From: Methanosarcina vacuolata Z-761
Lineage (GTDB): Archaea > Halobacteriota > Methanosarcinia > Methanosarcinales > Methanosarcinaceae
Assembly: GCF_000969905.1 (NCBI RefSeq)
Contig: NZ_CP009520.1
Span: 2,294,001 to 2,358,000 of the forward strand
Direction of reading: 5' to 3'
Length of the DNA stretch: 64,000 nucleotides
Under the pieces are notes generated by a model. It ran no database searches and was not told the DNA's origin. It saw only the letters and a list, made by a program, of their open reading frames with translations. The position numbers and the translations under genes were made by a program. Positions 2,330-44,023 of the stretch are shown one piece after another (the first letter of the stretch is position 1; every line of letters starts with the position of its first letter).

Positions 2330-2389
2330 GTGGGCCCTCGATTTTAAAAACTAATATACTGTTTTGAATTTTTTATATATATATATTAT

Positions 2390-3736
2390 TTACTTAAAAA
2401 ATTTCTCCACTGCCGAAACCGTGGAAGAAAGCGCAAAAACTATTACTCGGTCTCCTTCCCGAATTATGGAATCTCCTCTAGGTATGATGATGTCATCATT
2501 ATGAACAATAGTGGTAACGATTGCATCTTTAGGGAACTTGACCTTGTTGAGGGCCTTTCCTATAATTTTTGAATACTTTGAAGTCGTGTACTCTATGATT
2601 TCCGCCTTTTCACCTTCCAGCATGGTAAGCTTTTCAATACCTTTTCCCATTGTAAGCTTAAGTACTTCATTTACGGTTGCTTCCCTGGGGCTGACTGCCA
2701 TATCAATCCCAATCATTTCAAAAAGAGGCACATAGTCAGGGCGGTCAGCTCTTGCGATCACTTTCTTTGCCCCCATTTGCTTTGCCAGAAGCGAGCACAG
2801 AAGATTTTTTTCGTCATTGTCCGTAACTGCAAGCACGACATCCATGTCTTCGATATTCTCTTCCCTCAGAAGGTTGACGTCAGTGCCATCCCCATTTAAA
2901 ATAAGAGCGTTTTCCAGCATCTCTGCCACTTCTATGCAGCGGTTCTTCCTGTACTCGATAATCTTAAGGTCGGCATTCTCATCTTTGTCTATCAATTTGG
3001 CAAGATAAAAACCCACAATACCGCAGCCTATCAGGAGAATTCTATTTCTGTGAGGTTCTACGTTCCCAAAGACACGGCCAAGTTCTTCCAGAGCTCTGGG
3101 CTTGCCTACAACTACCATATGGTCGTTTGCCTTAATTAGATCATTTCCATGAGGAATAATTATTTCATGTTCTCGAAAAATCGCACTGACAATGCAGCAA
3201 TCATCAAGCATGAGATCCTGGATTTGCTTTCCTACAAGTTTGTTGTCAGGACGGATGGCAAATTCCATCATCTGAACTTTTCCTCCGGCAAAGACCTCCG
3301 TATCTATAGCTGACGGGCTCGAAAGGACCTCGGCAACCTCCGAGGCGAGCGCAAGTTCAGGACAGATCATTGTATCGACTCCAACCTGAGACCTTGAAGT
3401 TACAGGCACATCGATATAATCAGGGTTGCTAACCCTTGCAATTGTCTTTGTTTCTTTCCATCCTGGATGAGACCTTATGATCAGTTTTGCAGTCATACAG
3501 GCAACAATATTGACTTCATCAACACCTGTGACAGCAACCAGAATATCCGCATCGTGAATTATATTGGCAAGAATATCAGCGTTTGCACCATTTCCCTCCA
3601 GAACCTGTACATCGAGTTCATCGGCCCTTCGTGCGACATCCTCATCTTTTTCGACAACAATTACATCGTGTGTGGCGGAAAGAAACTTTGCAATATGATA
3701 TCCAACCTCGCCTGCCCCTATCACTATTGCTTTCAT
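2390..3736 (-). CDS. trkA: Trk potassium uptake regulatory subunit TrkA
   Basis: The 448-residue product has the two-fold TrkA layout: RCK_N (about 1-130, starting MKAIVIGAGEVGYHIAKFL, a GxGxxG nucleotide-binding loop), RCK_C (about 140-220), a second RCK_N (about 230-350, 'RILLIGCGIVGFYLAKLI') and a second RCK_C to the end. It binds NAD(H)/ATP in the cytoplasm and gates the TrkH pore. A Shine-Dalgarno GAGGG sits 6 bases before the ATG. It is first in a unit with trkH. Two additional RCK-domain genes occur near 47-49 kb. Confidence 0.93.
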   Translation of the reverse strand: MKAIVIGAGEVGYHIAKFLSATHDVIVVEKDEDVARRADELDVQVLEGNGANADILANIIHDADILVAVTGVDEVNIVACMTAKLIIRSHPGWKETKTIARVSNPDYIDVPVTSRSQVGVDTMICPELALASEVAEVLSSPSAIDTEVFAGGKVQMMEFAIRPDNKLVGKQIQDLMLDDCCIVSAIFREHEIIIPHGNDLIKANDHMVVVGKPRALEELGRVFGNVEPHRNRILLIGCGIVGFYLAKLIDKDENADLKIIEYRKNRCIEVAEMLENALILNGDGTDVNLLREENIEDMDVVLAVTDNDEKNLLCSLLAKQMGAKKVIARADRPDYVPLFEMIGIDMAVSPREATVNEVLKLTMGKGIEKLTMLEGEKAEIIEYTTSKYSKIIGKALNKVKFPKDAIVTTIVHNDDIIIPRGDSIIREGDRVIVFALSSTVSAVEKFFK

Positions 3737-4024
3737 AAGGTTCCCTCGAAAAAAAAGTTTGATTCCAGATAAATTAACCTGCTTACTTAAGTATTCTTTG
3801 GAAAAGGGAACTTAAAAGGGCATATTCTAAGGAATACTCTTTATGTAGAGGAATAGCTTAAGGTTCAGAGCGTTTAAGATGTGTATTTTATTTTACACCT
3901 TAACTATGTACTCATTTGACATGAAAGTTCTTTCAAGTACTTTCATTTCTTTGTGCCTGTGATTAGAAGAATTTCATATTATCGATTGAAATTGATTTTT
4001 ATAAAGTTTTATTACAAGTTAAAT

Positions 4025-4801
4025 TCAGAATTCAAGCTCAAGCCCTACAGGACAGTGGTCCGACCCCATTATTTCACTGTAAATCGAGGAGGATTTTACG
4101 TTTTCTCTCAGATTTTCGCTTATGAAAAAATAGTCCAGGCGCCACCCTACATTTCTTTTACGTGCGCCTGTTCTCATTGACCACCAGGAATAGTTTCCAC
4201 CTTCGCGATTAAACATTCGAAAGGTGTCAAGATAGCCAGCAGCAAGGAATTTATCCATCCATGCCCGCTCTTCAGGAAGAAAACCGGATATCATTTCATT
4301 TTGCCTGGGACGGGCAAGATCGAGCTCTTTGTGAGCGGTATTTACATCCCCGCAAATGACAAGTCTTTTGCCTTCAGTTTTGAGGGCATTTGCGTAATCT
4401 AAAAAAGCTTCGTAAAAATTCATTTTATATTCCAGGCGTTCCAGAGAGGCTTTGCCATTGGGAAAATAGATATTCATTAAGATAAAGTCCTCAAAATCGG
4501 CCCGCAGAAAGCGGCCTTCTCTATCAAATTTTTCGATTCCCATGCCAGTTTCGAGCTTCAGGGGCTTTTTCCTGGAGAAGAGCCCAACCCCGCTGTAGCC
4601 GTTCTGTTCTGCTGAGACAAAATAATTGTGGTAGCCTGGAATGTTCTTTGCTTCTCTCGGGAGTTTATCAGGAGAAACTTTAGTTTCCTGAATGCAGACA
4701 ATATCAAATTTCTGTTCCAGCAAAAGCTCAAGAAAGCCTTTTTTCATTGCAGCCCGAAGGCCGTTTACATTCCAGGAAATGAGATTATATTGACCAGACA
4801 T
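4025..4801 (-). CDS. xth: Exodeoxyribonuclease III (AP endonuclease, ExoIII family)
   Basis: 258 residues, the normal length. All family blocks are present in order: 'SWNVNGLRA' (metal-binding Asn), 'VCIQETKV' (catalytic Glu), 'YSGVGLFSR', 'MNIYFPNG', 'ICGDVNTAHKELDLARP' (catalytic Asp/Asn), 'GYLDTFR', 'RLDYFFIS' and the terminal 'GSDHCPVGLELEF' (Asp-His pair). The enzyme cleaves DNA at abasic sites and has 3'-5' exonuclease activity in base excision repair. A Shine-Dalgarno AGGG lies before the ATG. It stands alone; the upstream gene trkA is on the same strand but 288 bases away. Confidence 0.95.
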   Translation of the reverse strand: MSGQYNLISWNVNGLRAAMKKGFLELLLEQKFDIVCIQETKVSPDKLPREAKNIPGYHNYFVSAEQNGYSGVGLFSRKKPLKLETGMGIEKFDREGRFLRADFEDFILMNIYFPNGKASLERLEYKMNFYEAFLDYANALKTEGKRLVICGDVNTAHKELDLARPRQNEMISGFLPEERAWMDKFLAAGYLDTFRMFNREGGNYSWWSMRTGARKRNVGWRLDYFFISENLRENVKSSSIYSEIMGSDHCPVGLELEF

Positions 4802-5287
4802 TTTTTATCCCTAGCGATTTTTTGGAATTTTGCATTACAATAAAGGACCCGGAGAAACAGAATTTAAGCCGTTAAACTGAATTAAGTAAACAAAATTAAA
4901 CTGGAAATAATTCAGAGTTTTAGTAAATAAATGCTCCCTATTCTATGCAAAAAGCCTGCTTTGAGGATCTCAAATCAGCTTTTAAAATCTCCAATCTGAT
5001 ACCCACTTTTTGCAACCTGCTTTTTGTAGCTACTTTTTCAGTTTATAATTGAGTCGATATAATTGAGTCGATCCCAAAACTCCAGATTGTTTATACTCTC
5101 ATTTTTAAGTTTCCTTTCCTCTTTCGGAGTAATTATATGTTGAGTAATTATATATTAAAGAAAATAAAAGTACAATTGCTAATTTCCTGTAATTTGCTTC
5201 ACACGCCATTGTCCGACTGACTTAAGGCTAAATTTGAAGATATGGGGGAAATTTTAGAAGAAAAACCGGTTGGGGAGCCGTGATGTT
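4802..5287. other. Intergenic region between xth and the ThiN gene
   Basis: AT-rich spacer between divergent genes, so it must hold both promoters. It contains a perfect 14-bp direct duplication (ataattgagtcgat, about 5046-5073). The phrase 'gatcccaaaactc' nearby resembles the terminal repeat of the element at 10807-10938. No riboswitch-like TPP element was recognised ahead of the thiamine-related gene. Confidence 0.4.
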
Positions 5288-5887
5288 ATGGATCTTAATG
5301 AAAAGATAGACATGATAGGGCGTTTATATCTTGGGCTTGAACAAATAGAAGACTGTGAGGAATTCTCATCTTTGATTCCCGAGGTTCGAACAAATTTTGT
5401 TTATGCCTCAAAAGAATCAGCCACTCCTGAAGATGTTCTTGCAGTCGATGGGAGGATTTCGGTAGTTGATGGGTTTCCGAAAGCTATAGGAAGAATAAAA
5501 TTCGGGGCTTCTGGCTTTATGGCTCATCTTCTGCTAGAAATCCAGAAAAAAGATTCTGAGATCAGGTCTATTATAGATTTTGCAAATAACCCGAAGATTG
5601 CCGAGTTTTTGAAAGATTACTGTAAAGAAAAGGAATGGAATTTTTCAGTTGTAGACCGGCGCTTTGAACCTGATAATATGAAGGATACAGAAGGGGAGGC
5701 TATCTCATGGATGGTCGAAGAGGCTATTCGGGCTGCAGGGGGAAAAATACCCAGGATCTTTTACGAGACAGGTGCAGTTGGAAAAGAGCCGGTGAGTATT
5801 CTTCTAGGAAAAGACCCGCTAGAGGTTGCAGAACAGATCTGCGAGCTTGCCAGAAACTACCATGAATCAGGGCAAAGAACGAGATAA
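5288..5887 (+). CDS. ThiN-domain protein (thiamine-phosphate synthase family)
   Basis: A ThiN-like domain fills nearly all of the roughly 200 residues: 'SLIPEVRTNFVYASKESATP' and 'DVLAVDGRISVVDGFPKAIG' at about 29-68, 'KFGASGFMAHLLLEI' at about 71-85, 'VVDRRFEPDNMKDTEGEAIS' near 125, and the glycine-rich 'FYETGAVGKEPVSILLGKDP' near 165. ThiN is the archaeal thiamine-phosphate synthase, usually fused to ThiD or to a helix-turn-helix; here it is free-standing. I chose ATG 5288 because GGGGAG lies 10 bases upstream; a TTG at 5270 would add six residues. A regulator or sugar-phosphate-binding role of a lone ThiN domain cannot be excluded. Confidence 0.7.
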   Translation: MDLNEKIDMIGRLYLGLEQIEDCEEFSSLIPEVRTNFVYASKESATPEDVLAVDGRISVVDGFPKAIGRIKFGASGFMAHLLLEIQKKDSEIRSIIDFANNPKIAEFLKDYCKEKEWNFSVVDRRFEPDNMKDTEGEAISWMVEEAIRAAGGKIPRIFYETGAVGKEPVSILLGKDPLEVAEQICELARNYHESGQRTR

Positions 5888-6364
5888 AAAGAAAAGGCCA
5901 TATTTGAAAAACAGGAAATGGTACCGAAAGTGGGGAGGAGCGGGGAAAGGGTCATAGAAGCCCTCTCCTCCCATGGAGTAATGAAGAAAACCAGTTTTTC
6001 GGCTCTTCAATATTAACCGGCATCAGGAGGTTGGGATTGCCGAGTTCGAAATCCATTTTGAGATGCGCGGTTTGTTCGCATTTACACAATATTAAATAGT
6101 ATTTTTGAATATTTAAAATTATGTGCTGTGTTAGTATACCTCATGATAGCACGCCACAATTAATTTAATATTTTGAAAAACCATCGTTTTTCTAGAGAGT
6201 GTATAGTTGCCAGCTATAAGAGTCCTCATAAGTACGATTAAAGAAGCGGTCTTAAAATAGAAAACAAAAGTGTGAACACAAAATGAAAAAAAAGAGGGAT
6301 ATAAATCAAATATCTCATATGAAAAGCAGAAAAAGAGATAAGTATTGGCTCTTTTCAAATAGGC
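5888..6364. other. Intergenic region with hairpin and a possible 34-codon ORF
   Basis: A long inverted repeat (GGGGAGGAG near 5933 with CTCCTCCC near 5966) follows the ThiN gene and may be a terminator. On the minus strand, 6056 to 5952 is an ORF of 34 codons reading MDFELGNPNLLMPVN at its start, with a TTTAAATA box about 50 bases upstream but no clear ribosome-binding site. It may be a small protein or chance. Other short ORFs here have no protein-like features. Confidence 0.3.
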
Positions 6365-6817
6365 TTAAACATCTCCCGAGTTTCCAAGCTCAAGCGTCCT
6401 TCCTGCTCCGTCAACGATTGTCTTTTTTCCGTCCACGTCGATGAACCTTACTGAGACATTTCCATCCTTGTCGTATTTTGTCCAGACCGTGGTATTCTTA
6501 TCTTCGGACCACATGTACTCGAATCTGGAAGTATTTCCTTTAGTACCGGTTTCTACACAAGCTCTACAGAGAGTTTTGTTTTCAAATTTTTCGGTTCCGG
6601 TAATTGTCAAATTCAGGATTTTTCCGGTAGCCGGATCTTTGACCTGAAGCTGAGAACCTACAGGGCACGAGCTGCCATTACCTGACTCCGGAAAACTGAC
6701 ATTTATTTCAGTCTCATTATTTGAAACCGATAATTTTGTTCCCTCTTTAAAGATACAGCCAAAGCTGAGAAATGCTGCAAGAATGAGCAAGATAACTAAA
6801 ACTCGTTTTTTTGACAA
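6365..6817 (-). CDS. Small exported lipoprotein of unknown function
   Basis: The 150-residue product begins MSKKRVLVILLILAAFLSFG and then Cys21: a short basic n-region, a hydrophobic core and a lipobox-like LSFG-C. This suggests a lipid-anchored surface protein. The mature part is hydrophilic, rich in Asn, Thr and Lys with several N-x-S/T sequons, and has one internal pair of cysteines, about 66 residues apart. The start is TTG: AAGGTGG lies eight bases before it, and no ATG is better placed. I do not recognise a family. It stands alone. Confidence 0.65.
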   Translation of the reverse strand: MSKKRVLVILLILAAFLSFGCIFKEGTKLSVSNNETEINVSFPESGNGSSCPVGSQLQVKDPATGKILNLTITGTEKFENKTLCRACVETGTKGNTSRFEYMWSEDKNTTVWTKYDKDGNVSVRFIDVDGKKTIVDGAGRTLELGNSGDV

Positions 6818-6930
6818 AATCTACCACCTTAATTCGTGAATTTCAATTAAAATATTCAGGGCTTTTCACTCCATTAAATGCCTTTCATTTAAATTCCAAA
6901 CTATACTTTAGAATACATTGAACAAATATA

Positions 6931-7089
6931 GGACTTACGCACTTGAGGAACAAAATCAATTACGACAAAGACTGTGGATTAAAGTAAAGTTTTAGACAGT
7001 TTACGGTCTAATGCTGTTGATTTTACGGTTTAATGCTGTTGATTTTACGGTCTAATGCTGTTGACTCTTCAGTTCAACTGCATAAGTCC
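6931..7089. mobile_element. MITE-like element with GGACTTACGCA-type ends
   Basis: The ends GGACTTACGCACTTGAG (6931) and, on the other strand, GGACTTATGCAGTTGAA (7089) form inverted repeats with three mismatches. The 159-bp interior has no ORF but holds three exact or near-exact 22-bp tandem copies (7000-7065, unit tttacggtctaatgctgttg plus at). The element is flanked by a 22-bp duplication (tttagaatacattgaa...) at about 6908 and 7145. A single similar terminus occurs at 37885. Confidence 0.6.
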
Positions 7090-7360
7090 CAAAATATTAT
7101 CCACTGTAAAATAAAGTCTCGGATTCAAATTTCAAGAGATATATTTAGAATACATTGAATAAATCTGGGTAACACTTATTTTTATACAGAGTTCTTGCTA
7201 TCCTGCGCATGATAACATATCCCATATCAAGCGTTCTAGTTGATATTGCAGTTCAAGATAACACTCATTTTTTAATTAAGAATAAAAAGTAATATATTTT
7301 AAAATAAGAATATATATCTTTTAAAGCAAGAATGGAAGATATGCCTTTATCGTATCATAA

Positions 7361-7816
7361 ATGGGAGTGGATAGAACGGACGGAAGTCATTTCAAAAGAA
7401 TTCTGATTGCAACCGATGGCTCGGAAAATGCAGAAAGAGCGGCTTCTTATGGAATTAATCTCGCAAAAGCAGCAGGTGCTGAAGTAGACGTTCTTTATGT
7501 AATTTCGACTCAGCACGCAGTAACTACACGAACGGTCAAGGGCTGGAGCGAAGGATTGGAAGAATATCTTACGGATAAGGGGAGAGCTGCAATTAACTAT
7601 GTCGAAAAACTGGGAAAAGAAGCCGGGCTTGAAGTTAAGCCCGCGTTCCTGAAAGGCATTCCTGCTGATAAGATCCTTGAATATGCTCAGGAAAACAATA
7701 TTGACCTAATAATAATGGGCACACAGGGTCTGACAGGCATCAAAAAATTCCTTATTGGTAGTGTTGCAGAAAAGGTTGTAAGGCATTCAAGGATTCCAGT
7801 AATGGTTATTCGGTAA
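7361..7816 (+). CDS. Universal stress protein (UspA family)
   Basis: 151 residues, one Usp domain. The N-terminal strand 'KRILIATDGSENAERAASYG' and the C-terminal ATP-binding signature 'GTQGLTGIKKFLIGSVAEKV' (G-2x-G-9x-GS) are intact, so this is probably an ATP-binding member. Usp proteins are cytoplasmic dimers linked to stress survival; the exact role is unknown. No Shine-Dalgarno is visible before the ATG, and a long AT-rich TATA-like region lies just upstream, so the transcript may be leaderless. A strong hairpin follows the stop. Confidence 0.9.
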   Translation: MGVDRTDGSHFKRILIATDGSENAERAASYGINLAKAAGAEVDVLYVISTQHAVTTRTVKGWSEGLEEYLTDKGRAAINYVEKLGKEAGLEVKPAFLKGIPADKILEYAQENNIDLIIMGTQGLTGIKKFLIGSVAEKVVRHSRIPVMVIR

Positions 7817-7818
7817 AT

Positions 7819-7837
7819 GCAGGCCTTATGGGCCTGC
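7819..7837 (+). terminator. Hairpin after the universal stress protein gene
   Basis: GCAGGCC-TTATG-GGCCTGC is a perfect 7-bp stem with a 5-base loop starting three bases after the stop codon, followed by a T-rich run. This suits a terminator or a transcript 3'-end stabiliser. Confidence 0.65.
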
Positions 7838-7955
7838 TAATTCTTATTTACGATGTCGGAAATTATTTCTTAGATTTATTCTTAGATTTGCTTTAGAGCT
7901 ATTTGCTTTAGGGCTTGTTCGTATATTTGTTCTTTATTGTTCTTAGGTTACAGCT

Positions 7956-8234
7956 TCAATCTTCAAAGATTCCTGAACCTTTAAACACGTCTTTTGCTTC
8001 TTCAAGGCTCAGGTCTTCAGGGGGCACGATAATATCGGATTTCAGAAGCTCTTCCGCTTCAATCGGCTCCCCTTTTTCCTTTATTTTGGAGATCAATCTG
8101 GCAAGTTCGCTTCGGAACTCCTCGACTTTTCCTTCCTCAACAAGAACCACAATCCGGTTATCAATCTGGTTCAGTTCATCACAGAGAGCTTCAGGTGCCC
8201 TGTACTGGCCTTCACCCATAATCCTGATTATCAA
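7956..8234 (-). CDS. pspAA: PspA-associated protein PspAA
   Basis: The 92-residue product matches the PspAA domain: 'RIMGEGQYRAPEALCDELNQ' at the start, a middle helical part, and 'LLKSDIIVPPEDLSLEEAKD' towards the end. PspAA is a small partner found next to PspA homologues in archaea and some bacteria; its biochemical role is not settled. The gene starts with TTG, two bases after the pspA stop codon. The Shine-Dalgarno GGAGG lies inside the last codons of pspA, which implies translational coupling in a two-gene operon. Confidence 0.8.
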   Translation of the reverse strand: MIIRIMGEGQYRAPEALCDELNQIDNRIVVLVEEGKVEEFRSELARLISKIKEKGEPIEAEELLKSDIIVPPEDLSLEEAKDVFKGSGIFED

Positions 8235-8236
8235 CT

Positions 8237-8989
8237 TCAGACCTCCTTTCGTTCTTCCGTGCCTTCTTCTCCGGTTTTTGCTTTTTCAGGCCCTTTTCCG
8301 GACTCGGACTTAAGTCTGGCAAGTTCGGATTCTACATTACTCTGGGCACTGATTTTTGCAAGTTCCCTATCAATTTCGTCCCTGCCGCCTGTAAGGTCTT
8401 CGAGTGTGCCAGCTTCCATAAGCTCGTCAATTGCCTCAGCCCGCGCTTTCATTTCTTCGGTTTTATTTTCGGCCCTTTCGAGCGCAAGGCCCACATCTGC
8501 CATTTCTTCGCTGATACCGGTAACAGATTCGTTTATTTTCACCTGGGCCTCAGCAGCTGAGTACTGGGCTTTAATTGACTCTTTCCGGGTCCTGAAAATC
8601 TCCACTTTCGTTGAAAGGCGCTTTTCCGAGGCTATCAATTTTTCCTGCTGCTTTTCAAGATCTGAAACTTCCCTGTCGATTCCCTCGATCTGTTGCGCAA
8701 GGGCTGCTTTTCTCTCAAGGGCCAGCCTTGCAAGATCCTCCCTACTAGCAGCAACTGCATCTCTTGCCTGCCCTTCAAGCTTGTCTATATTTTGAACCAG
8801 TTTTGCACGCTGGAGTTCAAGGCGCTTTTTTGAACTTGTAACTTCCGCAACTCCTCTTTTCACGTTCTGAAGCAGTTCAAGTTGCCTCTCATAGGAATAG
8901 TCCAGTGTTTCCCTAGGGTCTTCCATCTTGTTAAGCACTGTATTCATCTTCGATTTAAATACTGTTTCCATCCTTTTGAATAATCCCAT
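8237..8989 (-). CDS. pspA: PspA/IM30 family membrane-stress protein
   Basis: 250 residues, almost entirely alpha-helical coiled coil rich in Glu, Lys, Arg and Ala, as expected of the ESCRT-III-like PspA/Vipp1 family. It starts MGLFKRMETVFKSKMNTVL, the amphipathic membrane-binding helix 0, followed by 'MEDPRETLDYSYERQLELL', the typical first hairpin. The last 30 residues are a charged, probably disordered tail. PspA forms oligomers on the inner face of the membrane and preserves its integrity under stress. A good Shine-Dalgarno (AAGGGG) precedes the ATG. pspAA follows directly. Confidence 0.92.
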   Translation of the reverse strand: MGLFKRMETVFKSKMNTVLNKMEDPRETLDYSYERQLELLQNVKRGVAEVTSSKKRLELQRAKLVQNIDKLEGQARDAVAASREDLARLALERKAALAQQIEGIDREVSDLEKQQEKLIASEKRLSTKVEIFRTRKESIKAQYSAAEAQVKINESVTGISEEMADVGLALERAENKTEEMKARAEAIDELMEAGTLEDLTGGRDEIDRELAKISAQSNVESELARLKSESGKGPEKAKTGEEGTEERKEV

Positions 8990-9185
8990 GTACTTTCCCC
9001 TTTGCTTTTTTTAAAGATCTCAAGTCGAATAGATTTGCAGTTTCTGTGCTTTCTTTATTATTTCTGACAAATTTTTTCCGACACCTAATCCGGTATTTCT
9101 GTTATTTTTGTATATTTGTTTTTTATCTATTTTTCGTTGGAGTAATATAATTAGCTTACCTATATTCCTATCTGTGAACTACCAC
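8990..9185. promoter_or_regulatory. Upstream region of the pspA operon
   Basis: This AT-rich sequence must contain the pspA promoter on the minus strand; I could not single out one TATA box. No gene is seen. Confidence 0.3.
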
Positions 9186-9361
9186 TCAGCAGCAGATTAG
9201 AGACAATAATTGAGGTTGCTAAAACCATTAACAGTATTGTACAGTTAATAAAAAGAAATGCTAGAGGGCATCGAAACATTAAGTATTTTATTACTATAAT
9301 ATAGATAAAATTCAGAAAGTTAGAGTTCAAACTACCCATATGAAATGACGAAGAGCCAAAA
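9186..9361 (+). pseudogene. Remnant of an ISL3-type transposase 3' end
   Basis: This stretch matches the last part of the ISL3 element at 25118-26442 (near 26204-26443) over almost its whole length but lacks about 72 bases in the middle. The same words recur: 'agcagattagag', 'acagttaataaaaagaaatg', 'ctacccatatgaaatgacga', 'agagcc'. It includes the right-hand terminal repeat. The left part of the element is absent. It shows that the ISL3 family has been in this region more than once. Confidence 0.85.
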
Positions 9362-9774
9362 TTCTCTGAACCCTGTTATGAATTACCGATCAAGTCTCCA
9401 ATATTTTTATCTTTTTTCTTTAAATGCACATATTTTAGTTCATTTCTGTTTTAAATATATCATTAAAAATTTCTAATTTAAACTATATATTGTTACCAAA
9501 ATAAATTGAAGTATTAATTTTTAAGATATTATTACAGAATAATGTTAATGCTTAAATAGTAAATCGCCATTATAATTCCTACTAAAAAAGTTCATATTCC
9601 TTCTGAAACTTCAAAAAGTATTGATATTTTGCAAAGAAGGAATATGTTAAGTTATAAATAAAAACGCTATGGGAGACACTCTATAAATATAATACTCTTC
9701 GGAAAAGGAGTACAGAAAAGCTGTAGATGTCGCCAGGGAATAAGGAGACTAAACAAAAATAAAGGGGAAATAAA
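9362..9774. promoter_or_regulatory. AT-rich leader of the DUF2795 gene with 12-bp inverted repeat
   Basis: The arms CATATTCCTTCT (9593-9604) and AGAAGGAATATG (9635-9646) form a perfect 12-bp inverted repeat with a 30-base spacer. It lies about 130 bases ahead of the DUF2795 start and could be an operator or a structured leader. The rest is AT-rich spacer without genes. Confidence 0.4.
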
Positions 9775-10008
9775 ATGGAAACTGAAAACAAAGCTGGATA
9801 CATTACCGAACTTCCTATTGAAATTCAAAAAATATTTAAAAATCTGGATTTTCCTATAGAAAAGAACGGGATTATTGAACAAGCAAGAAAAAGTAAAGCA
9901 ATTCCGGATATACTGCGGGAACTTGGCATGCTTCCTGACAAAAAGTACAATAGCGCTGAAGATATTGCAGAAGAACTTCATAAAACTTACATGGGGGTCC
10001 CAGTCTAA
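9775..10008 (+). CDS. DUF2795 family small protein
   Basis: The 77-residue product resembles DUF2795 proteins: 'ITELPIEIQKIFKNLDFPIE' then 'NGIIEQARKSKAIPDILREL' and 'LPDKKYNSAEDIAEELHKTY'. The family is a small helical fold with a 'LP...Y.s..dv...l' end, of unknown function; some members accompany stress or regulatory genes. A Shine-Dalgarno (AAGGGG) sits eight bases before the ATG. It stands alone, with an inverted repeat in its leader and a terminator hairpin behind it. Confidence 0.75.
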   Translation: METENKAGYITELPIEIQKIFKNLDFPIEKNGIIEQARKSKAIPDILRELGMLPDKKYNSAEDIAEELHKTYMGVPV

Positions 10009-30673: not shown

Positions 30674-32261
30674 TTAAGCGCATAAATTCAATTTTTCCAT
30701 AATTTCTTTTTGCTTTCTTGTGAGTTCTGTAACTATTACCTCTCCATTTTGCAGTTCTACTTTTCTGATCTTCTCAAGCTCTAAAAGTAAACTCTCTACT
30801 GTATAATCCTCAATAATTTTTGTTTCCTTCATCATACTCAGTAGCTTCATTCTAATAATTAGTCCGATAAAGCAGACAAAAATGAATCCCTTTGTTGTTG
30901 AATCTTTGTTTGTGTTTAGTGGAAGCGACTGAATATCATTTTTCATTACTTTGAATCCTTTCTCAACAATATCTCTTTCTCTGTAGTAAGTGAGACATTC
31001 TACCCAATCACGTTCTCCATAATAAAAAAGGAAAAACTTCCCCATTCTGTTTATTCTCTGCGATACTGCATTTTTCTTGATATTGATTTTGAAATGGTCA
31101 TCTATCTTTTTCCACGAATAGAAACTTGCCATTTCCCTTGCTCTCTCTTTGAACACCTCTGCCGCATTTCTCCATCCTGGTATTGCTGTTTCTTCCAGTT
31201 TTTCCTTCATATCATAAAGACGGGAGTAAAATGTGCTTTTTTCGTCCATTTCTCTCTTTGGATCATAGAAACAGTATCCATTGATCTTGAATTCCTTTTC
31301 CTCAAGAGTCACTGGCTTTACAAATATTGGTTTTTTGTGAAACTTATGAAGATATTCCGGACTTTCGATGTCTTTTTGTACTGAACTCATAAGCTCTTTG
31401 ACACTTTTAAGTGCCATTGTAGCTGGCATAATAAAAGGAATCTTTTCCCTTACTAATTCCTCAATGTTTCCCTTGCTGAAAAATCCTCTATCCATTACCA
31501 GTGTATAGTTTTCCATTCCATGAGCTTCTATCTTTTTTAGAGTATTTTTAAGAGTTGTAACGTCTACAATACTTCCAGGATAGATGTCATACATCACCGG
31601 GAATTCCTTTTTCCTTATCCACAATCATGGAGAGATTTATTTGAGGAAGATCGCAATTGTCTCTATTGTATCCGTATTCAAGAAGATTAATTAGTTGTGA
31701 GTAGCTCGATAAACTGGTAAGATCGTACATTAATGTGCGTTTTGTCCCAAGATTTCTAAACATTTTACCCATAAACATGGATGGAATGTCGCTATTACCT
31801 ACTTTTGCAAGTAGATTACTGATGTTTTGACTTTTCAAGGGTAACTCAGGCCACTGGAGAGAAAGAACAGAATTCTCATACCAGGTTTTAAGGTTATACA
31901 TAGCTGTAGGACGAATTACACGATTAAGTGCCATTGAAAGTATCATGTTTCTGTCTTTCTCATTGAACAGATCACCAAGATACTCTTCAATTTTGAGTTC
32001 TTCTACGATTTTTTGCAATGGAAGGAACTCACCATAGTTATAAGCATTTATAGGTTTGCTGGAAACGAAAGAAGTCTCATCTTGCACGATTTCATCGGAA
32101 GAGTTTAATGCGTCACGAACTCTAACAGGTTTACCGCTTATGTTTCTGCCAACATATTTGGATTTATGGCGAATTTGTTTCTTTTCCTTATCGTAATAAG
32201 GAATATCTTCGTACCAGTACTCAATTCCATTTATTTTCTTGATGCGGAGTGTGGACTTCAT
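30674..32261 (-). pseudogene. IS1634-type (IS4 superfamily) transposase, one frameshift
   Basis: Two overlapping frames make one protein of about 530 residues. The first (32261 to about 31610) starts MKSTLRIKKINGIEYWYEDI and carries 'TLMYDLTSLSSYS' with the first catalytic Asp. The second (about 31620 to 30674) continues with 'PVMYDIYPGSIVDVTTLKNT', 'YTLVMDRGFFSKGNIEELV' with the second Asp, and 'YYRERDIVEKGFKVMKNDIQ' with the catalytic Glu. The shift lies in 'IVDKEKGIP'. Only one shift is needed, so decay is recent or the site is a programmed slip. Clear terminal repeats were not found. Confidence 0.85.
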
Positions 32262-32281
32262 GTGCTTATTATATAAGCACA
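32261..32281. promoter_or_regulatory. Palindrome over the transposase start
   Basis: TGTGCTTAT-TAT-ATAAGCACA is a 9-bp-arm palindrome whose edge is the A of the transposase ATG. It contains a TATATAA-like box on the minus strand. It could be an operator for the transposase or a hairpin hiding its start codon. Confidence 0.45.
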
Positions 32282-32699
32282 TAAGAGTATATAAAAGTTT
32301 TGAATTGTTGTTTGGAAATGAATAAGTTCGCATGCATCTGCACACGAATTAATTGAGCAAAATAGGGATACAAGAATTATGCGCTTAAAATTTGGGAATT
32401 AAGGTTAGAATGTATCGTCTAACAACTATTGACTCGCAAACGTTGACCCGCAACCGTTGCGCCGGTTTATCACAAACCGTTGCGCCGGTTTATCACGCCG
32501 ATAGGGTTTGGGGATAAGGTTATCAAACTCAAACGGTTATTGGGGTTTTCGATCAAGCCTTTTTTCAAAAGGGTTGCAGGCAAGCTTTTTTAAAAAAAGT
32601 GTGATCACGCTTATTGGTAGTCCAAACGAAATTTGGGTAATTTGGGTAAATATACCCATGGACAAATTGAAAATCAGTGTCTCAAGCCCATAATTCAGC
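32282..32699. other. Spacer with short duplications
   Basis: No gene is seen. A 23-bp sequence (aaccgttgcgccggtttatc plus ac) is duplicated in tandem at 32451-32496. 'ttttcaaaagggttgcaggc' and a nearby 'ttttttaaaaaaagtg' are low-complexity. Confidence 0.4.
32451..32496. repeat. 2 x 23-bp tandem duplication
   Basis: aaccgttgcgccggtttatc followed by ac is present twice in direct succession, with one difference in the first base pair of bases. Confidence 0.9.
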
Positions 32700-38589: not shown

Positions 38590-39097
38590 CTATATCATCT
38601 CCATCATTCTGCTAGGTTCGATACAATTTCACCTTTACTGGTTCCCCAATTCACTTTTTATGGGCAAATCTACTTGATTTAAGAATAAGTAATCTGCTTA
38701 CATTTCTGGAAGACTATCTAATGAGTAAACTATGTTGCTTCATTATTTGCCGCTAAAAGTGATTTTTTATTGTATCGCTAGTTTATTATTATCCAGCGCA
38801 TATAATAATTGTAGAAATATAAATTAGAAACCGATATTAATTACAATCCGATTTTTGATATTCAAAATAGTTTTAAATATTTATTAGATTACTATATTTA
38901 TTAAAACTAGAATTTAAAAGTTTAAATGATAATTTTATTCAAAATAATTATGATTAAATTTAACCCAGTACAAAAATTCATTGAAGAATGTTAAATATAA
39001 AATCACTGAATTTTGGTACTGAATCCTTGTGTGGCTAATTTTATATAAATAATGTTATCATTATGAATGCATCCAAAAAATAAGATTATTTGTTGAG
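38590..39097. other. AT-rich spacer with a minimal inverted-repeat element
   Basis: Apart from the 64-bp element at 38962-39025, no features are seen. The promoter of the secreted protein gene must lie near 38600. Confidence 0.35.
38962..39025. mobile_element. Minimal element made of two terminal repeats
   Basis: CCCAGTACAAAAATTCATTG on the left and, inverted, GATTCAGTACCAAAATTCAG on the right match the ends of the 198-bp element at 46597-46794 (CnnTACCAAAATCnAGTGAT). With only 64 bp it is essentially a hairpin. Confidence 0.45.
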
Positions 39098-39988
39098 TTA
39101 ACGAATACTTGAAGCGACATCTGTCGCAAATAGTCTGAGCGAAAATTCTCCGCCGCTTTTGACCCTAAAGCCCGCCGCTCCTCTGTGACCTCCTCCACCA
39201 TATTTCTGAGCTATTTCGGCACAGTCTGTAGAGTTCGATCTAAGCGATACCTGAACCATATCATTAACGATCTGCCACATGACAGCTATATCATATTCTG
39301 GCTTCTGGTAAACATATTCTCCAATGTCGCTGGCATCCGATGTAGTATTGATAAGTCTCGCTCTGAGACCGTGAAAATTGATGTCTGTGCCTCTTTCAAA
39401 CGCTTTCTCAATCCTAACTTTCTGTACGTCTGCAAGTGCACGTCCAATTATTAGGTAGAGTTCAACTTTTTCTTTTCCATTGTTGCTCGATGCCAGCAAA
39501 TCTTTCCAGTCTTCATCTTCTGGGGAATGAATAAGAATTTGGCAAGCTTCCGTAAATGCTGAAATTTCCTCCTTCTTGTCCCCGAATTGCCAGATGTCCC
39601 GCCTAGAAATGTACTCAACTGCTGTAGGGAGTGGCTGATCATTTTTAAAATATTCCCATGTAAGCTGGGAGGCAGCTTTTGTGATATCCCTTTTTCCCAG
39701 AATGTTTGAGTTCCACAATTCCTTGTGCTCTTCCATTGTCGTTTTGTGATGATCTATCCATATTAATTTTTTTCCTGCTATTTCTACAAGAGTTTCCATA
39801 TCTGGAAAAGTGAAATCGAGGACATAGACTTCGTTAGCTTCTTCGATTTCTTCTTTTTTCCATGTATTGCCACTATACTGCACTGCAATGCATTTTATTG
39901 GATTATAGGTAGTTTTTTCCGTTGCCTCTCTGGCCTGAGCTGCTGAGCACTGACCGTCAAGGTCATCGTGATGATATATAACAATCAT
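39098..39988 (-). CDS. DHH superfamily phosphoesterase (NrnB / cyclic nucleotide phosphodiesterase-like)
   Basis: 296 residues with DHH-family metal motifs: 'YHHDDLDGQCSAAQ' (Asp8, Asp9, Asp11), 'VLDFTFPD' and 'IWIDHHKTTMEEHKE' (Asp79-His80-His81), and the C-terminal DHHA1 signature 'YGGGGHRGAAGFRVKSGG'. The layout matches the group that contains NrnB oligoribonuclease and putative cAMP/cGMP phosphodiesterases. It would cut short RNA or cyclic/linear dinucleotides with Mn2+. The ATG has AAAGGAG upstream. It is the next gene downstream of the STING-like protein, on the same strand with a 504-bp gap, which makes a nucleotide-signal turnover role attractive but unproven. Confidence 0.82.
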   Translation of the reverse strand: MIVIYHHDDLDGQCSAAQAREATEKTTYNPIKCIAVQYSGNTWKKEEIEEANEVYVLDFTFPDMETLVEIAGKKLIWIDHHKTTMEEHKELWNSNILGKRDITKAASQLTWEYFKNDQPLPTAVEYISRRDIWQFGDKKEEISAFTEACQILIHSPEDEDWKDLLASSNNGKEKVELYLIIGRALADVQKVRIEKAFERGTDINFHGLRARLINTTSDASDIGEYVYQKPEYDIAVMWQIVNDMVQVSLRSNSTDCAEIAQKYGGGGHRGAAGFRVKSGGEFSLRLFATDVASSIR

Positions 39989-40492
39989 TTAGTTCTACTC
40001 CTTTGGTAAATCCCTACACTTGTAACTCACATAGTCTGAAATATAGGCAATTATTATTGATGTCACTTGGATAATGACGTTTGCGTATGTTGACATCTAG
40101 TTTCCTCCATTTTAATAGGAAAGAGGGTCTGCAAAATTCTTAATTTGCTGCAAACTGTTCCGCATTTTTTATCATACACAACCTTTTTAGTGAAAGAGAG
40201 GAGGGAGAATCATTCATCATTTAAAAACTCTCAGTAAATTGCCTATTCTTCCAAGCTATAGTTTAATATTTAACAGTAAAACAAAAAAGAATCGTATTCT
40301 TTTCAAATTCGATGGAGAATTTTCCAACTCGAAAAATATGCATAATTTTATCATACATTTATAAAGTTGAATACATCTCTTGAAGTTCTTTTTTAAACTT
40401 GGTTAAATTTTTAACTATTTAGTAAATACGTGAAATTTACTTTTACCCATACAATTTGAAGAGGATACAAAGAATCTACTAAATAATATTCC
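39989..40492. other. Spacer between the DHH and STING-like genes, possible leader peptide
   Basis: On the minus strand, ATG 40097 is preceded by a perfect GGAGG seven bases upstream and opens a 27-codon frame (MSTYAKRHYPSDINNN...) ending at 40014, just before the DHH gene. It may be a leader peptide or small protein. The rest is AT-rich with no feature. Confidence 0.3.
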
Positions 40493-41527
40493 TTAATTGT
40501 TTTCAAACAAATTTTTAATCTCGGTAGCTTTGAGATCTTTGATATCTTTAATATTAAAAGTTTTGAAATTTCTTAGAATATTTGATGAATGAGTGCCTAA
40601 ATCATTATATGCAAATCTCTCAAGGTAACGTTTAAACTGTAAAATTTCATCGGATTGAATTTCCTGATAATCAGGAGAATTTGGCTTGGGATTTGCATTT
40701 CTACCTAATCTGGAAAGAACACTCTCTCTCAGACTCGCTAATGTAGTAGGAATGTCAACAATAACTGGATCCGCATTCTGTAAAATCTCGTCTGACAATA
40801 AATATATAGTGATTTCTCTTCCATAAGCATTCAATTTGACAGGAACAAAACTTCTTCTTTTAACTAAAAAATCAATTTCGCGGCGAGTAGCTTGTTCCAA
40901 ATTCCCAGGAATGATACAAACCATTTTTCTATCAATTATTTGACTCTCTTCCTCTAAAGCAAAATCAGGTCCATCTATTATTTTTCCTTCAAAACATGGA
41001 ACTACTAAATTGCGATAATAACTTCTGGCAATCCCATAAGCTGAAGACATACTATTCAATGGTATTCCAAAGTAATCTGTCATAGGATTCTCTATTAGAT
41101 CTCCATCTTGCCGTGCTTGAAGAACTTTGTGGATAACCGGCCCCAATTTATTTATGGCTTCTTCCGTTTCACGAGCATTAATCTCAAAGTGGCGATATTG
41201 AGCCCTATCAAAAAGCTGGAGATCTTTTTCATTATCTGCAACATCTCTTATTTTGACAGGAACGCAGGGTCTTCCCATTGCATCGATAATAGCCATTTCG
41301 TAAAGGACATTTGGATTGTTTCCGGTGACATCAGCAATTACTAGCTGTGCTCTGTCACAGGAACGGATAATATGGTGCATAATATTCCCGAATTCTGGCA
41401 CATCAGGCGTGAAGACTTCGAAGTTATTATTCTCAAGAATCTTTTCTACTACATCATGAGCGAGCCATTCCAAAAGTTTAATATGTTTCTCGTTCATTGG
41501 CCCTATAACGAAACAACGATTTGTCAT
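40493..41527 (-). CDS. STING-like receptor with N-terminal TIR/deoxyribosyltransferase-like domain
   Basis: 344 residues. Domain 1 (1-140) is a Rossmann-like nucleoside deoxyribosyltransferase/TIR-type fold: 'RCFVIGPMNEKHIKLLEWLA', 'AQLVIADVTGNNPNVLYEMA' with a candidate catalytic Glu77, and 'IDAMGRPCVPVKIRD'. Domain 2 (about 150-310) has landmarks of prokaryotic STING: 'YGIARSYYRNLVVP' (164-177), comparable with G-L-A-W-S-Y-Y of animal STING, 'MVCIIPGNL' (strand), 'NAYGREITIYLL' (Arg237), and 'VIVDIPTTLASLRE' (256-269), comparable with the D-I-P-T-T ligand-contact motif of bacterial STING and L-E-Y-A-T-P-L of animals. By analogy, a cyclic dinucleotide bound by domain 2 would activate NAD(P)-degrading domain 1. 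No CD-NTase cyclase is in the window. Assignment by motif reading only. Confidence 0.65.
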   Translation of the reverse strand: MTNRCFVIGPMNEKHIKLLEWLAHDVVEKILENNNFEVFTPDVPEFGNIMHHIIRSCDRAQLVIADVTGNNPNVLYEMAIIDAMGRPCVPVKIRDVADNEKDLQLFDRAQYRHFEINARETEEAINKLGPVIHKVLQARQDGDLIENPMTDYFGIPLNSMSSAYGIARSYYRNLVVPCFEGKIIDGPDFALEEESQIIDRKMVCIIPGNLEQATRREIDFLVKRRSFVPVKLNAYGREITIYLLSDEILQNADPVIVDIPTTLASLRESVLSRLGRNANPKPNSPDYQEIQSDEILQFKRYLERFAYNDLGTHSSNILRNFKTFNIKDIKDLKATEIKNLFENN

Positions 41528-41548
41528 AATAACATATTAACTATCAAA

Positions 41549-41557
41549 CTTATAAAA
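41549..41557 (-). promoter_or_regulatory. TATA box of the STING-like gene
   Basis: TTTTATAAG on the minus strand is centred 26 bases before the ATG, so transcription would begin almost at the start codon and the mRNA would be leaderless. No Shine-Dalgarno is present, in agreement. Confidence 0.6.
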
Positions 41558-42100
41558 CTAGCTACTATAAAGACTGAAATTATAATATATTTATATTATA
41601 TTAGATAAATAGCAGGGCATCATATTTTATTAATAAAAATAAATTTATAATATAAAAGTTTAATATATAATTTGCAGATAATTCTAATTAAAAATAAACC
41701 AATCTACTCAAAAGTGCTTTGTCTATTATTGTGTCAATTTAGTACATTAGCTACATTAATATTAAAATAAAATTAATCATAATAATACACTTTTCGGAAT
41801 ATTTTTTTGATAATCAATACTCCTTACGATAGCGTTTTCTAAATCATCTTCAAATAAAAGAGAAAACAAATGAAACTTGGTGAAAATTGAATACTACCGT
41901 TTTTTAGTTTCTAAATACGTCAAATTTAAAAGGCTTCCAAACCGATCATAGGAATTTTAGTATTTTCGTCCGACATAACACTATCAAAAATAATATTAAG
42001 TATAATAAGAGTTTGTAACTCATTTGAATCCTACATTAGAACTTATGGTACCGCCTAGGGTATAGGTTATTATATATCATCTAGTTCTATATCTCCTTTT
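41558..42100. other. AT-rich divergent intergenic region
   Basis: Separates the STING-like gene from the PIN-ATPase gene. It holds the latter's promoter; 'ggttattatatatcat' 35 bases before its ATG is a likely TATA region. No other gene was found, and in particular no cyclase-like ORF. Confidence 0.4.
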
Positions 42101-44023
42101 ATGGCAGAAGAGAAGCAGATGCTGAGGATTATTCCGGATACGAGTACCGTTATTGACGGGAGGCTTTCGGTTAAGGTCAAAAGTGGGGAATTCAGAGGTG
42201 CTGAAATCGTAATTCCTGAAGCTGTGGTATCTGAACTTGAAGCTCAGGCAAATAAGGGTCGGGAAATAGGTTTCAAAGGAATCGACGAACTTTTAGAACT
42301 TCGTAAGCTTGCAAATCGGGGAGAAATTAACCTTCAGTTCAGTGGAGTTAAGCCCACTCTTGAAGATATCCAGCTGTCCAACGAAGGCAGGATAGATGAC
42401 CTCATCCGAAACACAGCTAGTGAAGTAGGGGGACTGCTTGTGAGCGAAGACAGGTTACTGTCTCTAGTAGCTGAGGCTAAAGGGCTTAATGTCGAGTATA
42501 TGCATCCTAAAGTCCTGGAACCATCCGAACTTCCGCCTCTTAAAGTAGAACATTTTTTTACTGACGATACGATGTCCGTACATCTTAAAAATGGGGTATC
42601 TCCTATGGCCAAAAAGGGGCCTGTAGGGGATATACGCTATGTAAAAATTCGTGATGAGCCTGTTACTTCTGCGGAACTTTCCAGTATCTCAAGAGAACTT
42701 ATTGAAAGGGCCAGACTGGACCCCGAATCTTTTATCGAGATGTCTTCAAGTGGAGCTACTGTCCTGCAAATCCGGAATATGCGAATTGCAATTGCTCACC
42801 CGCCTTTTTCCGATGATATGGAAATTACAATTGTGAGACCAACTGTGGTTGTGGACCTTGAACACTACCGGCTGAGCGATAAACTCAAAGAACGGATTGT
42901 AAGCCAGCGTGGTATTCTTATTGCCGGCCCTCCCGGAGCCGGAAAGTCTACTTTTGCCGCCGGAGTTGCTCGATACCTGAATGACCGCGGACAGGTAGTT
43001 AAAACAATGGAGTCACCAAGAGACCTCCAGGTGCCTCCTGAAATCACCCAGTATTCACCTTTGAACGGCAGGATGGAAAATACTGCAGACCTTTTGCTTC
43101 TGGTCAGGCCGGATTATACAATCTATGATGAAGTCCGTAAGACCGGCGATTTTCTTATTTTTGCGGATATGCGGCTTGCAGGCGTGGGAATGATCGGGGT
43201 AGTACATGCAACCAGGGCAGTGGACGCAATTCAACGCCTGATAGGAAGGGTTGAACTGGGCGTGATCCCTCAGGTAGTCGATACCGTTATTTTCATTGAT
43301 AAAGGAGAAGTGGCAAAGGTTCTGGTACTTGAGTTTACCGTCAAGGTCCCTCATGGAATGACCGAACAGGATCTTGCAAGGCCGGTAATCGTCATTGCCG
43401 ATTTTGAGACCCGAAAAACAGAATATGAAATATATACCTATGGGGAACAGGTTGTTGTTATGCCAGTAGGGCCTCCTACCGAGCTAAGGAAACCTGCCTG
43501 GAAGCTTGCGGAAGAGGAAATAAGAAATGTTATTGGCAGGTACGCCTCCGGCCCGGTTGAAGTTGAAGTGACTTCAGACGACAGTGCACTCGTAAAGGTC
43601 CGGGAAGACGAGGTACGAAAAGTTATTGGCAAAGGTGGGAATGTCATTGACCGGATCGAAAATGTTCTTGGCCTGCATATTGACGTAAGAGAACTGGAAA
43701 TCGGAGCCTCAGGGGCTGCAAAAGGCCGGAAGTATGGAGCTGAAAGTAAAGCTCTCCGAGGGAAACTAAAGACAACCAGCTTTGAGGAAGAGCCCAGTGT
43801 TTCTTCTGTTCATCCTTTCATAGAAAGAGATAAAAAGCACCTTATTCTTGGAGCACCGGAGCTTGCAGGAAAGGATGTGGAAATATATCTTGAAGACCAG
43901 TATCTGTTCAGTGCAACCGTAAGCCGACATGGAGATGTGAAACTCAGGGCGAACTCGGATCTTGCATCTGAGATTCTGGATGCTCAGGATAAAGGAGAAA
44001 CAATTGAAATCAGAATGATCTGA
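42101..44023 (+). CDS. PIN domain-ATPase-KH protein (COG1855 type)
   Basis: 640 residues, an archaeal three-domain protein. PIN nuclease domain at about 1-135: 'RIIPDTSTVIDGRLSVKVKS', 'VIPEAVVSELEAQANKGREI' and 'DDLIRNTASEVGGLLVSEDR' carry the acidic pocket. VirB11/PilT-like ATPase at about 200-470: Walker A 'LIAGPPGAGKSTFAAGVARY' near 275, 'LLVRPDYTIYDEVRKTGDF' as Walker B, 'GVVHATRAVDAIQRLIGR'. A KH RNA-binding domain lies near 505-530: 'RKVIGKGGNVIDRIENVLGL'. An RNA-processing or quality-control function is inferred from the domains. It stands alone. Confidence 0.9.
   Translation: MAEEKQMLRIIPDTSTVIDGRLSVKVKSGEFRGAEIVIPEAVVSELEAQANKGREIGFKGIDELLELRKLANRGEINLQFSGVKPTLEDIQLSNEGRIDDLIRNTASEVGGLLVSEDRLLSLVAEAKGLNVEYMHPKVLEPSELPPLKVEHFFTDDTMSVHLKNGVSPMAKKGPVGDIRYVKIRDEPVTSAELSSISRELIERARLDPESFIEMSSSGATVLQIRNMRIAIAHPPFSDDMEITIVRPTVVVDLEHYRLSDKLKERIVSQRGILIAGPPGAGKSTFAAGVARYLNDRGQVVKTMESPRDLQVPPEITQYSPLNGRMENTADLLLLVRPDYTIYDEVRKTGDFLIFADMRLAGVGMIGVVHATRAVDAIQRLIGRVELGVIPQVVDTVIFIDKGEVAKVLVLEFTVKVPHGMTEQDLARPVIVIADFETRKTEYEIYTYGEQVVVMPVGPPTELRKPAWKLAEEEIRNVIGRYASGPVEVEVTSDDSALVKVREDEVRKVIGKGGNVIDRIENVLGLHIDVRELEIGASGAAKGRKYGAESKALRGKLKTTSFEEEPSVSSVHPFIERDKKHLILGAPELAGKDVEIYLEDQYLFSATVSRHGDVKLRANSDLASEILDAQDKGETIEIRMI

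Follow-up and report, generated by a model that had tools for sequence, protein, structure and literature searches.

The DRT-STING gene and its surroundings

The window analysed here is a stretch of 64,000 nucleotides from Methanosarcina vacuolata Z-761 (NZ_CP009520.1, positions 2,294,001 to 2,358,000), and the archaeal host that the initial annotation had supposed from the letters alone is borne out. The features discussed below are collected in Table 1. Central to them is a minus-strand reading frame that begins with an ATG at 41527 and ends with a stop codon at 40493-40495, whose product is referred to as DRT-STING. The motifs on which the initial annotation had relied are all present in this protein, at the given residues wherever it had numbered them, namely GIARSYY (165-171), PGNL (207-210), R237 within NAYGRE and DIPTTL (258-263), as is the glutamate E77 within NVLYEMA.

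Table 1 Features of the DRT-STING locus (positions are those of the window)
Feature	Position	Strand	Description	Basis
Species-specific island	38963..42066	.	At most ~3.1 kb	Synteny with six same-genus genomes
DHH/DHHA1 phosphoesterase gene	39098..39988	-	Extra copy	PF01368, PF02272 over cut-off
MITE-like dispersed repeat	40294..40471	.	~175 bp, 16-bp inverted ends GTATCCTCTTCAAATT/AATTTGAAGAGGATAC; in the DHH-STING intergenic gap	
DRT-STING gene	40493..41527	-	344 aa; DRT/DNPH1-like N-terminus and prok_STING C-terminus	ORF, PF20300, fold match
STING cyclic-dinucleotide-binding domain (predicted)	40550..41050	-	Residues ~160-326	PF20300, profile alignment to 8hwj/9lmq
Ligand positions in STING domain			N173, L174, R237, I239, D258, T261	Contacts from PMC8748872
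N-terminal effector domain	41105..41527	-	Residues 1-141, catalytic-type Glu E77	PHROGs, PF05014 in relatives, fold match
PIN-ATPase-KH gene	42101..44023	+	Conserved right border, outside the system	Pfam PIN_4, T2SSE, KH_1

The gene for DRT-STING is part of an acquired island. The block matching 32.7-38.9 kb of the window is followed directly, in six relatives, by the PIN-ATPase-KH gene, the product of which is 83-92% identical in relatives. The nearest aligned edges are separated by about 0.17-0.28 kb in the four closest-aligned relatives, with 167-277 bp in L049, L051 and L052, versus about 3.1 kb here. The island turned up in none of 31 same-genus genomes searched, and no STING was found in the other 30 genomes of the genus. 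The GC3 of the DRT-STING gene (0.27) is the lowest among 15 local genes examined. An Rfam search of the island returned no RNA.

The DHH/DHHA1 gene on the island is found at this site in this genome alone in the same-genus comparison. A second copy at C2:1111760, which is 48% identical to the island copy, is the version that other Methanosarcina have. The island protein has weak similarity to NrnA/PAP phosphatases, and it is possible that it acts as a signal- or product-degrading partner of DRT-STING. An operon of the two genes was considered and rejected as unsupported; they are separated by a 504-bp gap, and because the MITE-like repeat lies within it, joint transcription is unsupported, while joint acquisition is only suggested. 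The repeat has at least eight further copies in the genome (81-85% identity) and many in other Methanosarcina-like genomes. A second dispersed repeat family, also present in several same-genus genomes, occurs upstream of the STING gene at 41789-41919 of the window. Elsewhere in the window, two adjacent minus-strand ORFs (30674-32345) resemble one transposase split in two.

The C-terminal half is a STING domain

Identification of the C-terminal half as STING, made at first by recognition of motif order, is upheld by a profile search, a genome search and a whole-chain model. The prok_STING profile (PF20300) matched residues 164-302 with 52.3 bits (E 7.9e-14) against a curated cut-off of 27.1, and a search of the whole genome gave DRT-STING as the single match (54.3 bits). 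The same profile had no match in 14 control genomes, and the match of DRT-STING is well above chance level. The PADLOC model for the CBASS TIR-STING effector also matched the STING half (E 1.1e-12). In a sequence search the nearest solved sequences were Cap12/bacterial STING chains, and a profile made from 40 relatives sharpened the matches to solved structures (8hwj, E 2.8e-10). The NCBIfam equivalog for Cap12 (NF050172) scored 26.1 bits against a cut-off of 450, over the STING part only.

The N-terminal domain resembles deoxyribosyltransferase-like enzymes

The N-terminal domain had been called TIR/deoxyribosyltransferase-like. It appears to lie nearer the deoxyribosyltransferase/DNPH1/MilB group, with the catalytic-type Glu kept as E77, than a classical TIR. 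Pfam gave no match on residues 1-141, TIR included, and the PADLOC TIR effector models touched this region weakly. The same residues matched PHROGs of unknown function (E 3e-13) and belong to a large, widespread family that carries C-F-x-I-x-P near its start together with A-D-x-T-x-x-N-P-N-V-x-Y-E. The nucleoside deoxyribosyltransferase profile PF05014 did not match DRT-STING itself, but did match several relatives, among them proteins of a Pedococcus (L081, 30.9 bits, above the cut-off of 28.8) and of a Chloroflexota MAG (L073, 25.1 bits).

E77 is invariant in the alignment of 40 relatives, and in a comparison made through L081 it falls on the Glu of the Rcl/DNPH1 yELG motif. In the rat Rcl/DNPH1 protein we take both E93 and D69 to be catalytic. 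The position equivalent to D69 is not Asp in the alignment of either DRT-STING or L081, and since this second catalytic residue is missing at the equivalent place, the substrate of DRT-STING may differ. A related TIR/NDT-like domain, DUF4062, is an NADase (PMC13174449). Our best guess is that the effector would be an N-glycosidase acting on NAD+ or on a deoxynucleotide. Searches of plasmid and phage proteins recovered the N-terminal domain only, joined to other C-termini. The same genome also encodes a paralogue of the DRT-like domain (L033, 1489-2361) with another C-terminal half and without STING.

Predicted structure and comparison with known systems

An AlphaFold2 model of the whole chain, built from the alignment of 40 relatives, had a mean pLDDT of 85.1 and a pTM of 0.79. 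Foldseek placed TIR-STING/c-di-GMP complexes at its top ranks (9lmq, E 5e-15). With VIA-align, the model aligned with SfSTING (7un8) at Z 21.0 and rmsd 3.2 over 273 residues, and with the E. lactis TIR-STING (9lmr) at Z 20.2 over 281 residues. Because both domains align with these proteins over the whole chain, the domains and their order are predicted to be those of the bacterial TIR-STING architecture. Residues 160-326 of the model aligned with solved bacterial STINGs at Z 13-16; the fold of this region, which had been named beforehand as a point on which the STING call could fail, does match STING. The DRT half aligned with DNPH1 and MilB at Z 12.9 over 118-136 residues. Likeness of a modelled fold is by itself no proof of function.

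The closest known systems are the Cap12/TIR-STING proteins of CBASS, which include SfSTING of Sphingobacterium faecium, ElSTING of Epilithonimonas lactis, PcSTING of Prevotella and MySTING of Myroides. DRT-STING resembles these in having a glycosidase-type effector (here predicted) at the N-terminus and prok_STING at the C-terminus, with whole-chain Z of 18-21, and it appears to keep the guanine-reading Arg and Asp, the phosphate Thr and the pocket Asn. It differs from them in an effector that is DRT/DNPH1-like and not TIR, in a lid that reads R-E-I and not RX(Y/F), and in its archaeal host, the genome of which has no detectable CD-NTase. Fusions of a deoxyribohydrolase with STING in bacteria are mentioned in PMC10732462, where earlier comparative genomics is cited, and going by that mention they probably have the same architecture, so that the architecture of DRT-STING is not unique. 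What is new in DRT-STING is the archaeal host, the lack of a detectable CBASS-type cyclase and the lid motif.

DNPH1 (Rcl), MilB and the PF05014 enzymes resemble DRT-STING in its predicted fold and in the residues surrounding the catalytic Glu; unlike in these enzymes, the domain is fused to a receptor and the position of rat Rcl D69 is not Asp. The STING domain is likewise shared with the TM-STING of Flavobacteriaceae (FsSTING, 6wt4, class II), but DRT-STING is not a TM-STING and has no RXR. An archaeal TM-STING (L002) does match 6wt4 (E 5e-20).

The predicted ligand pocket has an aliphatic lid

The pocket was mapped by sequence alignment to solved bacterial STINGs, using the contacts of PcSTING and MySTING with c-di-GMP that are defined in PMC8748872. 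In this alignment, N168, L169, R230, D251 and T254 of MySTING correspond to N173, L174, R237, D258 and T261 of DRT-STING, and Y232 corresponds to I239. Five of the six published ligand positions are thus kept, and the base-stacking aromatic of the lid is replaced. By alignment to the solved structures, GIARSYY and DIPTTL would also look into a single pocket. The lid reads R-E-I in DRT-STING, R-A-L in L081 and R-D-M in L073, giving an R-x-(I/L/M) motif common to all three DRT-STINGs that is neither the RX(Y/F) of class I nor the RXR of class II (PMC8748872).

R237 and D258, whose counterparts in class I STING are the guanine readers (PMC8748872), argue for a purine ligand, classically guanine. 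In MySTING, replacement of the lid aromatic by Arg lowered the affinity for c-di-GMP about 1200-fold (PMC8748872). With I239 in place of the stacking Y/F, binding of c-di-GMP may be weak or the ligand may be a different one, and so the ligand of DRT-STING cannot be read from its sequence. We infer that it would be a cyclic dinucleotide.

Relatives and their distribution

An alignment-based scan covered the genomes of 84,980 species, and among the best 80 loci, which were those considered, there were two full-length DRT-STINGs, L073 and L081. Both have both Pfam domains and are 25-31% identical to DRT-STING. The Pedococcus gene lies in an operon-like, effector-rich cluster (L081, 1436-9351) that encodes, besides DRT-STING, a patatin, TRPM-SLOG, DRT-TPR-S, TIR_2 and a protein of 740 aa with no match in Pfam, in contrast to the M. 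vacuolata gene, which is alone with DHH on its ~3-kb island. No CD-NTase was found in 13 kb around the Pedococcus DRT-STING; the CD-NTase of this organism lies elsewhere in its genome, paired with its own patatin (CBASS). The L073 contig ends beside the DRT-STING gene.

PF20300 was present in 3 of 238 genomes of the same class, matching DRT-STING and the TM-STINGs L002 (1429-2199) and L003 (1273-2013). The lid of L002 is of the class II RXR type; in L003 the lid is incomplete and its Arg is missing. Sampling 393 genomes spread evenly over the phylum added a CAP12-type TIR-STING, L071. Such rare and patchy occurrence in the phylum fits the expectation for transferred defence genes. Judged by eye, the neighbours of the Halobacteriota TIR-STING of L071 and L072 (L072 4830-6017, within a cluster at 1609-9845) are DUF4062-like NTPase-TPR and RyR/TrkA-N-like proteins. 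The L072 cluster, which has no CD-NTase, resembles an uncharacterised conflict system. No CD-NTase lay beside L002, L003 or L071 in the neighbourhoods read. In two of the genomes (G127 and G071), SMODS matched proteins as long as the CCA-adding enzyme, a reading that uses length alone. A DHH/DHHA1-type protein (L006, 15922-16887) is encoded at a distance of 1.8 kb from L002's TM-STING gene, which may be chance.

Peptide-pattern searches of the genome and viral collections with DRT-STING alone found no relative. STING-domain alignments found nothing among viral contigs, and no viral ORF matched a STING profile; what the alignment of the three DRT-STINGs recovered from viral contigs was limited to DRT-domain proteins.

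Possible sources of the signal

The initial annotation had seen no CD-NTase near the gene, and with the SMODS and DncV-like profiles this holds for the whole genome (4.56 Mb, 99.99% complete). No SMODS match exceeded the cut-off, so that a CD-NTase of the CBASS kind was detected neither adjacent to DRT-STING nor elsewhere in the genome, and GGDEF, mCpol and DncV-like cyclases likewise had no match over cut-off in profile searches of the whole genome, a statement limited by the sensitivity of the profiles. One sub-threshold SMODS match was rejected as a CD-NTase, as it is the archaeal CCA-adding enzyme (535 bits). With no recognisable CD-NTase in the genome, the signal would not come from a CBASS partner.

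The only known cyclic-dinucleotide synthase found in the genome is a DacZ-type diadenylate cyclase, for which DacZ was the nearest NCBIfam model (E 1e-33, below that model's cut-off). For archaea, a study documenting c-di-AMP in Haloferax also compared DAC sequences, one of them from Methanosarcina mazei (PMC6741144). Since no CBASS-type enzyme is detectable, DRT-STING may read the cell's own c-di-AMP, or else an unknown or externally made signal.

Proposed mechanism and alternative explanations

We consider it likely that DRT-STING is an effector of the bacterial STING type, horizontally acquired by a Methanosarcina, that a cyclic dinucleotide switches on and that kills the cell or depletes a metabolite. 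Its STING domains would dimerise, and on binding a 3',3'-cyclic dinucleotide the lid would close and the dimers would stack into filaments. The filaments would pack the DRT/DNPH1-like domains so that E77 could cut an N-glycosidic bond, in NAD+ or a deoxynucleotide, and this cleavage would starve both virus and cell. The DacZ-type diadenylate cyclase would be the resident source of the signal, with an unrecognised or virus-borne cyclase as the next possibilities. Weighing against this mechanism are the Ile in the lid, the absence of an Asp at the D69 position, and the behaviour of c-di-AMP, predicted to be the sole cyclic dinucleotide of the cell, which a bacterial STING binds (8hwj) but which failed to activate ElSTING (PMC12421889). 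Filament-gated activation has been published for TIR-STING (PMC9402430, PMC12421889); for DRT-STING, we infer filament formation, the substrate and an antiviral role.

A more specific proposal is that DRT-STING guards without a dedicated cyclase, reading the housekeeping c-di-AMP of the DacZ-type enzyme and firing when infection or osmotic shock shifts its level, with the adjacent DHH/DHHA1 protein holding down the level of the signal or of its linear product. The standing of that cyclase as the only known synthase in the genome favours this, as does the extra DHH/DHHA1 gene on the same island, DHH/DHHA1 being the fold of c-di-AMP/pApA phosphodiesterases. The solved complex 8hwj, a bacterial STING crystallised with c-di-AMP, and the departure of the lid from the guanine-stacking class I motif point the same way. 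However, R237 and D258, guanine readers in class I STING, are kept (PMC8748872), and ElSTING bound c-di-AMP, yet its NADase was switched on by c-di-GMP only (PMC12421889). The DHH protein moreover leans weakly toward NrnA/PAP phosphatases and its gene is no operon partner, given the 504 bp and the repeat in between, and an ever-present ligand would be dangerous unless affinity were tuned. On balance we regard such a guard as unlikely. That Archaea have an immune module built on STING that needs no CD-NTase, reads c-di-AMP through an undescribed R-x-aliphatic lid and has the co-acquired DHH phosphoesterase as its off-switch seems to us quite improbable.

Alternatively, the activating cyclic dinucleotide could come from an invading element or from a cyclase family that the profiles do not cover, in which case DRT-STING would work like any other CBASS effector, its fixed partner either lost or never present. 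L002, L003, L071 and the Pedococcus DRT-STING, which also have no adjacent CD-NTase, are consistent with this, but the genome yielded no candidate enzyme, a result that profile sensitivity limits in either direction, and we hold the idea only tentatively. If DRT-STING had been transferred recently without its cyclase, it might also be a stray, non-functional effector that is drifting. Its GC3, its restriction to one species, the missing cyclase and the adjoining MITE-like repeat would agree with that. Against drift, the reading frame of 344 codons is unbroken, E77 is kept along with five of the six ligand positions, and the AlphaFold2 model folds well, which makes a decaying gene distinctly unlikely.

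The usual view of STING is of a CBASS effector of bacteria that eukaryotes acquired later. Among open-licence papers, we found none that names an archaeal STING or uses phrases such as "archaeal STING" or "orphan STING". The four divergent archaeal STINGs comprise two effector styles plus TM-STINGs, none of them beside a CD-NTase. They make it testable whether STING acts without a dedicated cyclase and whether archaea had a part in its spread, and the clade with the R-x-aliphatic lid offers a test of how ligand choice in STING evolves. The Methanosarcina host may allow genetics on DRT-STING.
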